From Ralstonia sp. UNC404CL21Col (GTDB lineage Bacteria; Pseudomonadota; Gammaproteobacteria; Burkholderiales; Burkholderiaceae): 64,000 nt of DNA. How positions within the stretch are numbered: the first letter of the stretch is position 1; every line of letters begins with the position of its first letter. Positions 17,463-35,128 of the stretch are shown one piece after another. The position numbers and the translations under genes were made by a program. The notes below the pieces were generated by a model that ran no database searches, was not told the DNA's origin, and worked only from the letters and a program-made list of their open reading frames with translations. Location: positions 1,119,964 through 1,183,963 of the forward strand of contig NZ_KK211140.1 in assembly GCF_000620465.1 (NCBI RefSeq), given 5' to 3'.

Positions 17463-18710
17463 TCAGGCTGCCTTGGCGGGCTGGAGGGATTGGCCGGCCG
17501 CTTCCAGCGCCTGCGCCAGACGCTCGATGTCGGCATCGGTATGTGCCGCCGACAGCGTGATGCGCAGGCGTGCCGTTCCGGCCGGCACCGTCGGCGGGCG
17601 GATCGCGGCGATGCGGATGCCTTCGCGTTCGAGCGCAGCGGCCAGTTCAAGCGCGGGTGCGTTCTCTCCAATCACGATCGGCTGGATGGCCGTCGGCGAC
17701 GGCATCCACCGCCAGCCGAAGCGTGCAGCCAACCGCTGCGCGTGCGAAGTCCACACGGCGATGTGGCGGTCAAGGCGGGCACGACGTTCCGCGCCCTCCT
17801 CGCTTGCAATCAGGTCCAGCGCGGCTTCCACGGCAGAGGCGATGCCCGGCGGCGTGGCCGTGGTGAAGATGTACGTCCGTGCGCGCTGCACCAGCCAGTC
17901 AATCACCAGCCGATGTCCGACAATGGCCGCGCCCGAGCCGCCGGCCGCCTTGCCGAACGTGCCGACATAGATGATGCGCTGCGAGCGCAGCCCGAAGTGC
18001 GACAGCACACCCGCGCCGTTCTCGCCCAGCACGCCAAGGCCATGGGCGTCGTCCACGATCAGCCAGGCGTCGTAGCGTTCGGCCAGCGCAAGCAGTTCGG
18101 GCAGCGGCGCGATGTCGCCATCCATGCTGAACACGCCATCCGTGACGATCAGCTTGTTGCGACTGGTGCTCGCGGCCAGAAGCGCTTCCAGCGCAGCGAG
18201 GTCGACGTGCGGATAGACCTTGATCGGCGCCCGCGACAACCGCGCACCGTCGATGAGCGAGGCGTGGTTCAGCGCGTCGGAAAAGATCGTGCAATCCTCC
18301 GCCGGGCGGATGCCGCCGGCCTGCGCCATGGCACTCACCACGGCCAGATTGGCCATGTAGCCGGTGCAGAAGAACAGCGCGTCCGCCTCGGGAATGTGCG
18401 CGGCTTGCAGCGCCGCCATGCGTGCTTCCAGCCGCGCGTGCGCGATTGAATGGCCGCTGACAAGGTGCGATGCGCCGCTGCCAAAGCCATATTGCTGGGT
18501 AGCCTGCGTCATTGCCTCGGCCAAGGCGGGATGCGCTGCCAGGCCGAGATAATCGTTGCCGCAAAAGCCCAGAATGTCGCGCGGCTCTTCGCCGGGCACG
18601 CTGATGCGTTGGCTGCGGTCGGTCGGGCTGTACGCGGTGCGGCGCACGCGGCGCAGGTGCGCGGCGTCAATGGCGTCGAGGCCGGCCTGCAGGTCGTCAA
18701 GCAATCGCAT
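17463..18710 (-). CDS. bioF: 8-amino-7-oxononanoate synthase
   Basis: PLP enzyme of 415 residues that condenses pimeloyl-ACP/CoA with alanine. Visible are [10 protein letters not shown] near residue 60, [22 protein letters not shown], which holds the Asp and His that bind the cofactor, and [12 protein letters not shown], with the Schiff-base Lys. The ATG at 18710 (MRLLDDLQ) gives the usual family N-terminus. It lies within bioA, with a 14-bp overlap, so the two are translationally linked. Confidence 0.95.
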
Positions 18711-20103
18711 AGGTGTGTCCTTCAGTTTCGCCCGTGGCTTGGGCGAGCGTGTCTTCAAGCGTCTGCAGCGTGCGCTCGACCAGCGTGTCGGTCTCTTCGT
18801 CGCTCAGCACATACGGCGGCAGCAAATAGACGGTGTTGCCGATGGGACGCAGCAGCAGCCCGTGCGTGCGCGCCGTCAGCGCAAAGCGTTCGGCAAAGCG
18901 TGCACCGGCCACGTCGGGGTGCACGTCGAAGGCGGTAATCATCCCGGTCTGCCGCAGATGGGCGAATCGCGCATCGTGCGACAGCGGCGCCAGCCCCTGG
19001 GCGATGCGTGCCGCGGTCACGCGATTGCGCGCAAAGACATCTTCTTCAGCAAACAGATCGAGCGTGGCGAGGGCCGCGCGGCACGCGAGCGGATTGCCCG
19101 TATACGAATGCGAATGGAGGAAGCTGCGCACCGGCGCATCGTCGTTGAAGGCGTCGTAGATGGCATCGCGTGACAGCACGATCGACAGCGGCAGATAACC
19201 GCCGCTGATGCCCTTTGAGAGGCACAACAAGTCCGGCCACACGCCAGCCTGCTCGCATGCGAAGAACGTACCGGTGCGGCCGCAGCCGACGGCAATTTCA
19301 TCCGCAATCCAGTGCACGCCAAATTCGTCGCACAGCGCACGCACGCCGCGCAGATAGCTCACGTCGTGCATGGCCATGCCGGCCGCGCATTGCACCAGCG
19401 GTTCGATGATGACGGCGGCGATGGTGCCGGCGTGGGTGCTTAGGCAATCGCGCAGTGCGGCCAGCGCGCGTTCGGCTACGTCGGCGGCGGTTTCGCCTGG
19501 GCCGGCCAGACGCGCGTCTGGGGACGGCACGCGATGCGATTGCAGAATCAGGGGGTCGTACGCATCGCGGAAGATCGCCACGTCGGTCACGCCCAGCGCA
19601 CCGAGCGTTTCACCGTGGTAGCCGTGTTCCAGGCAGACGAATCGGCTGCGTGCGCCCTGCCCTGCATTGCGATGGGCGTGAAAGCTCATCTTCAGCGCGA
19701 TTTCCACGGCAGAAGCGCCGTCGGAGCCGAAGAAGCTGTGGCCCAGCACGCCGCCCGTCAGCTCGATCAGGCGCTCGGCCAGTTCCACGGCCGGGCGGTG
19801 CGTCGCGCCCGCCAGCATGACGTGCTCCAGTGAATCGAGCTGCGTCTTCAGCGCCGCGTTGATGTGCGGATTCGCATGGCCGAACAGGTTGACCCACCAG
19901 GAGCTGGTGCCGTCCAGGTAGCGCTTGCCGTCAAAGTCGATCAGCCACGGCCCCTGACCGCGCGCGATCGGCAGCGGCGGCATGGCATCGAGCCGCGCAT
20001 TTTGCGTGCACGGATGCCAGACGGCCGCGCGGCTGCGCGCCTGCCACGCCGTGTTGGCGCTGGGCGCGCCGTCGGCCGGCACCGGGATTGGGGGATACGC
20101 CAT
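18697..20103 (-). CDS. bioA: Adenosylmethionine-8-amino-7-oxononanoate aminotransferase (DAPA synthase)
   Basis: Class III aminotransferase of 468 residues that makes 7,8-diaminopelargonate from KAPA with SAM as amino donor. BioA features are present: [13 protein letters not shown] near residue 67, [39 protein letters not shown] and the PLP-Lys motif [12 protein letters not shown]. It is the first gene of bioA-bioF-bioD. The ATG at 20103 follows AGGAGGCC on the - strand, a strong ribosome site. Confidence 0.95.
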
Positions 20104-20432: not shown

Positions 20433-20474
20433 TTGCTCAGCCCTAGGGATAACCCTATACTCGGGAAAACCCTA
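20433..20474 (+). promoter_or_regulatory. Sigma-70 promoter with tandem GGG-N4-CCCTA operators (small-protein gene)
   Basis: A -35 box TTGCTC (20433-20438), 17-bp spacer and -10 box TATACT (20456-20461) precede the 55-residue gene. TAGGGATAACCCTA (20444-20457), a perfect 5-bp inverted repeat, sits in the spacer. A second copy, GGGAAAACCCTA (20463-20474), sits just after the -10. The same paired motif lies before the second orphan small gene at 34583. The positions suggest a dimeric regulator that overlaps the promoter. Confidence 0.6.
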
Positions 20475-20498: not shown

Positions 20499-20666
20499 AT
20501 GGTCCAGCAAGCCTATTTCACCCCCAAGTTCGCCGGCGAAATCCAAGTTCAAGCCGCCAACCGCACATCGCTGCTGCGCGCGGTCATCAATTTCCTCCGT
20601 AACGGTTGGGACGACAACCTCGCGTACGCAGAGGTGGTTGGCAAGTCCGGTTCGTACCTGGGCTGA
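20499..20666 (+). CDS. Orphan small protein, 55 residues, unknown function
   Basis: The ATG at 20499 follows GAGAGAGAA, an acceptable ribosome site, and the frame ends 38 bp before a terminator, so this is a self-contained monocistronic gene. The protein has no membrane segment or Cys. A central amphipathic helix (TSLLRAVINFLRNGW) is followed by a short acidic turn and a GKSGSYLG end. I do not recognise a family. The promoter pattern is shared with the small gene at 34583, although the two proteins are not alike in sequence. The frame is open upstream to 20391, but that part crosses the promoter. Confidence 0.7.
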   Translation: MVQQAYFTPKFAGEIQVQAANRTSLLRAVINFLRNGWDDNLAYAEVVGKSGSYLG

Positions 20667-20703: not shown

Positions 20704-20736
20704 TAAAAAAACGGCGCATCGGCGCCGTTTTTGTTT
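20704..20736. terminator. Bidirectional Rho-independent terminator
   Basis: AAAAACGGCGC (20707-20717), loop ATCG, GCGCCGTTTTT (20722-20732): an 11-bp perfect stem with A and T runs on both sides. It lies between the small gene (+) and benD (-), which converge here, and would end both transcripts. Confidence 0.85.
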
Positions 20737-20755: not shown

Positions 20756-21538
20756 TCAGCCCAGATCCCCGCCACCCACCGGCAACACCGTCCCGGTGAT
20801 GTACGACGCGTCGTCCGACGCCAGAAACAGAATCGCCTTTACCTGCTCGTCTATCGTGCCGTAGCGGCGCATCAGGCTGCTGGCAATGGTCTGGTCGACG
20901 ATGCCCTGATACCAAACTGCTTCCTGCTCCGACATGGGCGCCGTGTTGCGCGGGATCTTCCGCGGCGGCGCTTCGGTGCCGCCCGTGGCGACGGCGTTGA
21001 CGCGAATGTTGTCCTGCGCGTGCTCCATGGCGAGGCTGGCCGTCAATGCGTTCACGCCGCCCTTGGCTGCCGAATACGGAATCCGATAGATACCGCGCGT
21101 GGCAATCGACGACACGTTGACGATCACGCCCTGCCGGCGCTCCACCATGTGCGGCAGCACGGCGCGGCAACACCACAGCGTGGGAAACAACGAGCGGCGG
21201 ATCTCCGCTTCGATTTGCGCTTCTTCATAGTGCTGATACGGCTTCGCCCAGATCGTGCCGCCGACGTTGTTGATGAGCACGTCGATGCGGCCGAAGGCAT
21301 CCAGCGCAGTTTGTACGGCATGTTGAGCGCCGGCGTAGGTTTCAAGATCCGCCGTGGTGGCGTGGGCTTGGCCGCCCGCTGCAGCAATCTCGGCCTGCAC
21401 TTCGTAGACCAGCTCGGCCCGGTCCACCAGCAGCACCTGGGCACCCTCTTCTGCCGCAGCCAATGCCACGCCGCGCCCGATACCTTGCGCTGCCCCCGTC
21501 ACGACGACGGTTTTGCCTGAGAATCGTTGCATGCTCAT
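20756..21538 (-). CDS. benD: Benzoate cis-diol dehydrogenase (1,6-dihydroxycyclohexa-2,4-diene-1-carboxylate dehydrogenase)
   Basis: Short-chain dehydrogenase of 260 residues that oxidises and decarboxylates the benzoate diol to catechol with NAD+. Seen are the Rossmann motif TGAAQGIG near residues 15-22, NNVGG near 91, a catalytic Ser in NVSSIA and the YSAAK pair near 156-160. The RKIPRN stretch near 197 is typical of BenD. It is the last gene of the cat-ben operon. Its ATG overlaps the benC stop by 4 bp. An ATG two codons later (21532) is an equally good start. Confidence 0.93.
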   Translation of the reverse strand: MSMQRFSGKTVVVTGAAQGIGRGVALAAAEEGAQVLLVDRAELVYEVQAEIAAAGGQAHATTADLETYAGAQHAVQTALDAFGRIDVLINNVGGTIWAKPYQHYEEAQIEAEIRRSLFPTLWCCRAVLPHMVERRQGVIVNVSSIATRGIYRIPYSAAKGGVNALTASLAMEHAQDNIRVNAVATGGTEAPPRKIPRNTAPMSEQEAVWYQGIVDQTIASSLMRRYGTIDEQVKAILFLASDDASYITGTVLPVGGGDLG

Positions 21539-34497: not shown

Positions 34498-34571
34498 ATA
34501 CGTAAGCCTACGTATGGTGCATTGCATCATCTGGTGTATAGTCAGGGTATTCCCTAACCGGGATTTCCCTA
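34498..34571 (+). promoter_or_regulatory. Patterned promoter: TACGTA palindrome plus tandem GGG-N4-CCCTA operators
   Basis: ATACGTA-AGCC-TACGTAT (34498-34515) is a perfect 7-bp inverted repeat. A -10-like TATAGT is at 34537-34542. AGGGTATTCCCTA (34544-34556) and CGGGATTTCCCTA (34559-34571) then lie side by side, centres 15 bp apart, ending 11 bp before the ATG at 34583. The last two match the paired motif upstream of the small gene at 20499. No good -35 box is seen, so an activator bound near the palindrome is possible. Confidence 0.55.
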
Positions 34572-34582
34572 AGAGGCCAATC

Positions 34583-34759
34583 ATGCAAAACACGAACGAC
34601 CTGAAGCTGACCGATCAACTCGAACGCGAACTGATCGAGCGCGAAATGTCCGAAGGTATCTACTACTATCGCCGTCCGAGCGGCCAATCGTTCTCGTTCG
34701 CCCAGTTCTTCTCGGCAATCGCGAACCTGTTCGGCACGCAACGCACCGCCAAGGCCTAA
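34583..34759 (+). CDS. Orphan small protein, 58 residues, unknown function
   Basis: Short gene with AAGAGG, a ribosome site, 6 bases before the ATG at 34583. The N-terminal half is acidic and helical (LTDQLERELIEREMSEG). A YYYRRPSGQS turn follows, then an amphipathic aromatic helix (FAQFFSAIANLFG) that could touch membrane. It has no Cys and no signal peptide. It is not similar to the 55-residue protein at 20499, yet shares its promoter pattern, and each stands alone. I do not recognise the family. Confidence 0.7.
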   Translation: MQNTNDLKLTDQLERELIEREMSEGIYYYRRPSGQSFSFAQFFSAIANLFGTQRTAKA

Positions 34760-35128
34760 CCCGCCGCGCTATTGTCGATGGGCGTGTGCCCAAGCTAGCT
34801 GTATATAGCAATCGTAGTTTCAGTAGCACCGTGCGCCGGCCGTGTGTCATCACACCCGCCGCCACACCCGCCAGGTCATGACCGCCTGGTGCCAATCGAG
34901 GGCCGGATTCCGGCCCTTTGTCATTTCTGCGGCATTTGTATGGGTTGTTGCATGCCGCAGCATCGCCCTGACGCCTCCGACGCTCTGGCCGCCCAGCGGT
35001 TGTCTTCTGTTTAGCCTGTGCTTTACTGAGTAAAGCCGCGACCACCGATATCCAGACCACGCGCACGTCTTCACAGCCAGGGAGACGCACAGCATGGCAC
35101 CCGGCGCCCATCCCCCAAGGAGACTCCC
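34760..35128. other. Intergenic region upstream of the molybdenum hydroxylase operon
   Basis: No gene is supported here. The region holds a short inverted repeat (GTGTG-TCAT-CACAC near 34841), a second imperfect one (CCAGG...CCTGG near 34871-34889), a terminator-like hairpin (34899-34917) and then the presumed promoter of the operon. CTTTACTGAGTAAAG (35020-35034), with 7-bp arms, may be an operator. Confidence 0.45.
34899..34926 (+). terminator. Terminator-like hairpin
   Basis: AGGGCCGG (34899-34906), loop ATT, CCGGCCCT (34910-34917), then TTTGTCATTT. The stem is strong but the T run is broken, so termination may be partial. It lies 140 bp after the small gene's stop. Confidence 0.5.

Follow-up and report, generated by a model that had tools for sequence, protein, structure and literature searches.

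A conserved palindromic operator on the core promoters of small-protein genes in the Burkholderiaceae, probably the target of a steric repressor

Introduction

In Ralstonia sp. UNC404CL21Col, the promoter of a short gene carries two copies of a GGG-N4-CCCTA palindrome, one on either side of the −10 box, and a similar pair is found before a second small gene. Does this pairing point to a dedicated regulator whose small-protein regulon had gone unnoticed, as an earlier note on this DNA had proposed, and how would a protein bound there act on transcription? Here, the window is the whole stretch of DNA that was analysed, 64,000 nucleotides of contig NZ_KK211140.1.

Results

Two promoters with paired palindromes

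The elements of the two loci are given below in window coordinates; palindromes carry no strand.

20433–20438, + strand: candidate −35 box TTGCTC, weak (three of six positions agree with TTGACA), 17 bp 5′ of the −10; its TTGC is invariant across 16 Ralstonia genomes.
20444–20457: operator palindrome 1, TAGGGATAACCCTA, in the spacer, with TA common to the −10; invariant in 16/16 Ralstonia genomes.
20456–20461, + strand: −10 box TATACT, between both palindromes; invariant in the 16 Ralstonia genomes aligned.
20461–20474: operator palindrome 2, TCGGGAAAACCCTA (also written (TC)GGGAAAACCCTA), immediately 3′ of the −10 and covering the expected start site.
20499–20666, + strand: class E small gene, 55 aa, MVQQAYFTPKF..., confined to its own genus among the genomes searched.
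20706–20735, + strand: inverted repeat and T-run 3′ of the class E gene, terminator-like by eye and absent from the scan output.
34514–34530: ATGGTGCATTGCATCAT, PhaR-like, with two mismatches to the published PhaR palindrome.
34537–34542, + strand: −10 box TATAGT, read from the sequence.
34543–34556: operator copy 1, CAGGGTATTCCCTA, immediately 3′ of the −10; kept at relatives.
34558–34571: operator copy 2, CCGGGATTTCCCTA, 15 bp beyond copy 1; kept at relatives.
34583–34759, + strand: class D small gene, 58 aa, MQNTNDLKLTDQLERELIERE..., LTDxLER family; relatives were found by protein.
34898–34918, + strand: terminator-like hairpin 3′ of the class D gene, from a scan of the window region.

Re-reading of the sequence confirmed the site positions given in the earlier note for both promoters, as well as its copy spacing (17 bp for the 20433 pair, 15 bp for the 34544 pair). 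Its description of the promoters as sigma-70 promoters holds for the −10 boxes and not for the −35 boxes, which are poor or absent: no −35 is apparent upstream of the TATAGT at 34537–34542, and a strict promoter scan reported no promoter at the 20433 or 34544 sites. The sigma-70 label therefore rests mainly on the −10 boxes. The 20499 gene is flanked by minus-strand genes, namely two aminotransferase genes (17463–20103; Pfam classes III and I/II), which look like bioA and bioF, and a short-chain dehydrogenase gene (20756–21538).

The pair is enriched, the single motif is not

Within the window, GGGNNNNCCCTA was observed five times versus 0.52 expected, a count reached in 0 of 100 shuffles; four of the matches lie on the + strand and the fifth is the opposite strand of the first palindrome. 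Over the whole genome, the single GGGN4CCCTA showed no enrichment (37 matches versus 71 for reversed-pattern controls). For single copies, random frequency, which the earlier note had named as evidence against its own proposal, is thus what was found, and we rejected the single-copy scan as evidence for a regulon. Because the single motif is not enriched genome-wide, only the pair or the full palindrome is informative.

The pair CCCTA-N2-6-GGGN4CCCTA occurs at three places in the same genome, with no control match, and each place is 5′ of a gene of 48–58 aa. The third (C4:981018–981044) precedes a 48 aa gene, MNTVALKAARTSRF..., and adds a member to the two known from the window. Across the genus, all 16 of 16 genomes match, with 44 matches versus 8 control matches (summed). 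By matched sequence and place, with only some of the loci read, 43 of the 44 belong to the three promoters described here, the exception being G009:C26:581733. The full palindrome TAGGGWWWWCCCTA, at one mismatch or fewer, was found at six places in the genome versus none for the controls. Four of these are at the three pair promoters; the other two, C3:83515 and C5:574645, both have counterparts in a second Ralstonia genome. TATGGTTTTCCCTA is present at G000:C3:83515 (L218) and G010:C1:304515 (L225), and CAGGGATTTCCCTA at G000:C5:574645 (L221) and G010:C58:310976 (L231).

Sites are conserved at loci collected by protein similarity

Loci were collected by protein similarity, not by motif, and the 150 bp upstream of each gene was scanned for GGGN4CCC, which has a background of 0.003–0.037 sites per 150 bp. 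Two sites, 17 bp apart, precede the class E gene (the 20499 gene) in 16/16 Ralstonia genomes. For class D (the 34583 gene), two sites were found at 21 of 22 loci and one site at the remaining locus, with a spacing of 15 bp, once 19 bp; these 22 loci comprise 11 of Ralstonia type and 11 of Cupriavidus or Alcaligenaceae type, a twenty-third (L261, from a record titled Arcanobacterium) having been dropped as a false relative. Among the eight DUF3563 (class A) loci, which come from Burkholderia and Caballeronia records, four have two sites, three have one and one has none (L309). Class B genes (MSFI...) have two sites at five of seven loci and one site at the other two. Altogether, 52 of the 53 protein-fetched loci carry at least one site, showing conservation before orthologous genes without selection by motif. 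A second copy lies 15–30 bp away in 46 of the 53 promoters, and in class B these second copies are 25–30 bp further on. The inter-copy spacings seen across promoters are 15, 17, 18, 19, 25 and 30 bp.

Although the scan demanded only N at the four central positions, A and T alone fill them in 38 of the 39 distinct sites, and over the 39 sites the favoured flanks are A before and T-A after. At the class E promoter, TAGGGATAACCCTATACTCGGGAAAACCCTA is invariant in 16 Ralstonia genomes while the flanks diverge; this block was itself used to align the loci, after the protein-fetched scan had located both sites in each. The invariant block, the orthologue loci and the count of three pairs versus none in controls bear out a recurring palindromic operator and a hidden small-protein regulon. 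Neither random frequency nor lack of conservation, the outcomes that the earlier note considered damaging, describes the pair, whether judged by the orthologue loci or by the genome and family counts.

The target genes

Neither Pfam nor NCBIfam holds a match to the 20499 and 34583 proteins; tblastn with the two proteins found nothing, nor did a plasmid DNA search with the 20499 region. Among the genomes searched, the 20499 gene is restricted to its own genus (class E in 16/200 family genomes, all of one genus); the 34583 gene is not an isolated orphan, as LTDxLER (class D) relatives occur in Cupriavidus, in an Alcaligenaceae bin and in a sister family.

Thirteen class E sequences of equal length (78 pairs; three of the 16 were dropped) gave a pN/pS of 0.235. 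Values for class D were 0.268 in Ralstonia (11 sequences) and 0.312 in Cupriavidus (7 of 11 loci), and the signal was weaker for class C (0.519, six sequences). The genes of classes E, D and C thus look like coding genes under purifying selection. Other targets include the DUF3563 gene (Pfam E 9.9e-22), a second DUF3563 gene of 48 aa in the genus of the Burkholderia-type loci (Pfam 5.1e-9) and DUF4148 genes (E 4e-18), whose site placement is less clear. Reading of loci added MSFI genes, genes of class D, and those of class C, whose products contain an ALHxExC stretch.

Distribution across genomes

Counted from the table, TAGGGWWWWCCCTA is present in 109/200 family genomes versus 18/200 for the reversed control. 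The palindrome was seen in 14 of 25 family genera and is absent from 11; the pair is absent from 15 of the 25. The 15-bp pair GGGWWWWCCC-N5-GGGWWWWCCC matched 73/249 family genomes and 0/249 controls. At the order level, the palindrome was counted in 31/200 genomes versus 13 control genomes, and its occurrence outside the family is therefore largely chance.

A sandwich around the −10 was found in 13/389 genomes versus 6 control genomes. Three of the 13 belong to the own family, two lie elsewhere and eight belong to sister family f4, which is represented by 14 genomes. The LTDxLER class D gene follows the sandwich in seven of these eight; of the members seen, class D, which reaches into the sister family, therefore has the broadest conservation. 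Operators on or beside the −10 of DUF3563 and other small genes were seen in Burkholderia, Cupriavidus, Caballeronia, other genera and the sister family, some family genera having been taken as Burkholderia, Cupriavidus, Caballeronia or Paraburkholderia by likeness to named loci, the last of these by a guess.

Position of the sites and mode of action

Among 193 sites before recognised small genes, most of them found by motif and with gene signatures written from sequences already seen, 65 lie directly before the −10, in the spacer and sharing its TA, 79 lie directly after it, and 49 are unplaced. A simple rule therefore anchors 144/193 sites on the −10. By the same rule, four of five DUF4148 sites could not be placed. 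The Burkholderia DUF3563 promoter, for instance, reads TAGGGTTTTCCCTATAATTCGGGAAAACCCTA (L233). The palindrome recurs above chance before several unlinked genes and its sites overlap the core promoter, both of which are features of a repressor regulon.

Because the sites lie on the spacer, the −10 and the start, we favour a repressor over a classical activator, and because proteins bound there would block polymerase, repression is the simplest reading. We put at roughly 0.7 the probability that the paired palindromes are steric-repressor operators, AGGGWWWWCCCT, controlling a small-protein regulon. The operator would be AGGGWWWWCCCT with an outer T/A preferred, and its symmetry suggests a transcription factor that would bind as a symmetric dimer and act chiefly as a steric repressor. 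A dimer would occupy the spacer as far as the −10, or the stretch from the −10 across the start, or each of these would have its own dimer; RNA polymerase would then be unable to bind or open the promoter until the repressor releases. The variable distance between copies, 15–30 bp, makes it likely that each dimer acts on its own and that the pair is not a rigid cooperative unit. A single common regulator would in this way repress mainly proteins of about 46–67 aa (DUF3563 and families B, C, D and E), together with some DUF4148 genes, in many but not all Burkholderiaceae genera and in the sister family.

The poor −35 boxes, however, would equally suit an activator-dependent promoter, and a NarL/FixJ-type response regulator (BvgA-, RcsB- or NreC-like) could be what binds the palindromes, switching the promoters on or adjusting their output. 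For activation, the sites of BvgA, RcsB and NreC mostly lie upstream of the −35. The palindromes have 7-0-7 symmetry (inverted heptamers TAGGGWW/WWCCCTA), and in these short half-sites, the TA at the outer edges and the G-rich core they may resemble the sites of RcsB, BvgA and staphylococcal NreC; the weakness of the −35 boxes agrees with such an activator. The position of the palindromes does not: many overlap the spacer, the −10 and the start, and both window promoters have their sites there instead of upstream of the −35. Among the open frames nearest to the sites, none was noticed to encode a response regulator. The low-oxygen induction of likely regulon members (PMC7798474; see below) would suit an oxygen-linked two-component system. 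Taking both sides together, we regard a NarL/FixJ-type regulator as rather unlikely.

We consider it very improbable that the GC-rich palindromes work without a transcription factor, as built-in parts of the promoter (discriminator or spacer) by which open-complex formation is tuned, for instance during the stringent response. This would account for the −10 anchoring of 144/193 sites and for the A/T centre of 38/39 sites, but a discriminator effect needs neither dyad symmetry, nor a second copy such as 46/53 promoters have, nor the class B second copies 25–30 bp further on.

Control of the paired sites by the polyhydroxybutyrate regulator PhaR is more doubtful still. A PhaR-like element with two mismatches is present both at 34514–34530 and at the third promoter of the genome, and by eye, similar boxes were noted at promoters of classes B, C and D (Cupriavidus class D among them) and before a phasin gene of the same genome (L287). 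The PhaR palindrome consensus is given as YTKNTGCRNYGCANMAR (PMC12849132); GGGWWWWCCC does not fit it, and PhaR was rejected as the binder of the palindromes. In addition, the 20499 promoter has no such element within four mismatches, and at two mismatches or fewer the 64 kb window holds 14 places, so that a single match means little. A stricter pattern, TGYTGCRYTGCA, matched 25 places in the genome versus 7 for controls. PhaR may instead be a second input. In Ralstonia eutropha, a member of the same bacterial family, palindromes near the −35 and around the start repress the phasin gene phaP1 through PhaR (PMC12849132). PhaR-like boxes adjoin some of our promoters, while the cores differ, TGC-N3-GCA for PhaR and GGG-N4-CCC here. 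Because the consensus is loose and the 20499 promoter is without the element, the link to the storage polymer is only a lead.

Finally, an RNA element can practically be dismissed: GGG-N4-CCC could form a short hairpin in the mRNA leader and some or all of each second copy should lie within the transcript, but palindrome 1 (20444–20457) lies before and up to the −10, upstream of the start and hence outside the RNA, and Rfam 15 gave no match at gathering score anywhere in the window.

Transcription factor genes near the sites

We read the loci with sites for a transcription factor gene that itself carries a site, covering the nearest open frames only, so that a gene one or two away could be missed. 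No candidate recurs across the regulon, and on this ground an autoregulated regulator was rejected. In genus g11, TAGGGAAATCCCTA or TAGGGAATTCCCTA lies just 5′ of a GntR-type gene (L130, L131, L134, L136, L138; Pfam 3.8e-13 at L131) that is divergent from a transporter-like gene. A GntR-type gene also follows CAGGGATTTCCCTA in one of the two Ralstonia genomes (L231; Pfam 3.6e-10). In family f48, a LysR-type gene and a gene for a small membrane-protein-like product diverge from a promoter that holds TAGGGATTACCCTA or TAGGGTTTACCCTA (L187, L188; Pfam 1.3e-18 for the LysR at L187), and these LysR-side sites probably belong to another regulator. By eye, an ArsR-like gene was seen at L162 (a 33 aa piece had no Pfam match) and an HTH-like gene beside a DUF3563 gene (L125). 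In several genomes of genus g11, TAGGGTTTACCCTA lies 5′ of a gene that is cyoA-like by eye, with a transporter-like gene divergent (L129, L132, L137); a 70 aa piece of the cyoA-like product had no Pfam match. An FNR-type box was sought by eye in the Burkholderia DUF3563 promoter, and no good match was seen.

A possible signal

The DUF3563 gene of Burkholderia cenocepacia CMCC(B)23006 (58 aa, 177 bp; L233) has an Esterase_PHB gene on one side; on the other is an OsmC/Ohr-type gene, convergent with it, and beyond that a MarR gene. BCAM0896 is an organic hydroperoxide resistance protein and BCAM0897 a putative OhrR gene (PMC2830190). Because its neighbours are of this Ohr/OhrR type, BCAM0895 (176 bp) is very probably the same DUF3563 gene, an assignment made by neighbours and length and not by sequence match. 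In Table 2 of PMC7798474, where genes are listed for high expression in biofilms, the entries for BCAM0895 are 14.2-fold (H2O2) and 28-fold (low oxygen), the fold columns here and below being assigned from flattened text. The other DUF3563 gene, of 48 aa (147 bp), follows a MerR gene at L317, in the genus of the Burkholderia-type loci; by length and neighbours it would correspond to BCAL2308, which is 146 bp long, reportedly lies in an operon with a MerR gene and is given as 3.9-fold with H2O2 and 3-fold at low oxygen (PMC7798474). For class B, the gene at L234 (51 aa, 156 bp), which shares its replicon with L233, agrees with BCAM2685 (155 bp; 18.1-fold with H2O2, 21.9-fold at low oxygen; PMC7798474) in length and replicon only. 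Two of the highly expressed small genes of B. cenocepacia J2315, BCAM0895 and BCAL2308, are thus matched to members of the regulon through gene order and gene length rather than through J2315 sequence.

As an indirect clue, the published induction of these syntenic genes by H2O2 and low oxygen fits derepression. Genes of the same table with no known operator link also respond, among them BCAL0683 (102.1-fold with H2O2) and BCAL2734 (14.9-fold at low oxygen; PMC7798474). Peroxide or low oxygen may perhaps release the repressor. The fuller picture is possible, although we hold it only tentatively and at less than even odds: a hitherto undescribed repressor, responsive to peroxide and oxygen limitation, would hold down unrelated proteins of about 50–60 aa (DUF3563, LTDxLER, MSFI and others) by means of paired clamps on the −10, an arrangement kept since the ancestor of the Burkholderiaceae and the sister family.

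Discussion

The operator and its small-protein regulon are real and conserved. Like known steric repressor operators on core promoters, the palindromes cover the spacer, the −10 and the start, occur in one or two copies and define a small, dispersed regulon; unlike them, they serve mainly uncharacterised proteins of about 46–67 aa, and the regulator is putative. As far as the open-access literature tells, both operator and regulon are undescribed: it yielded no paper on DUF3563, none with any of five palindrome strings or one promoter string, and no Ralstonia paper with GGGNNNNCCC. The excerpts of PMC5688073 do not mention the operator, and the main text of PMC7798474, in which 'motif' and 'palindrom' have 0 occurrences, does not seem to describe a shared operator.

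A well-defined DNA site brings several families of tiny proteins of unassigned function together in one regulon. For small genes without other functional evidence, an operator shared across genera is a strong basis for grouping, and it offers a direct way to fish out the regulator. It also provides a lead to the role of these small proteins, which may lie in the response to peroxide and low oxygen and perhaps in connection with the storage polymer.
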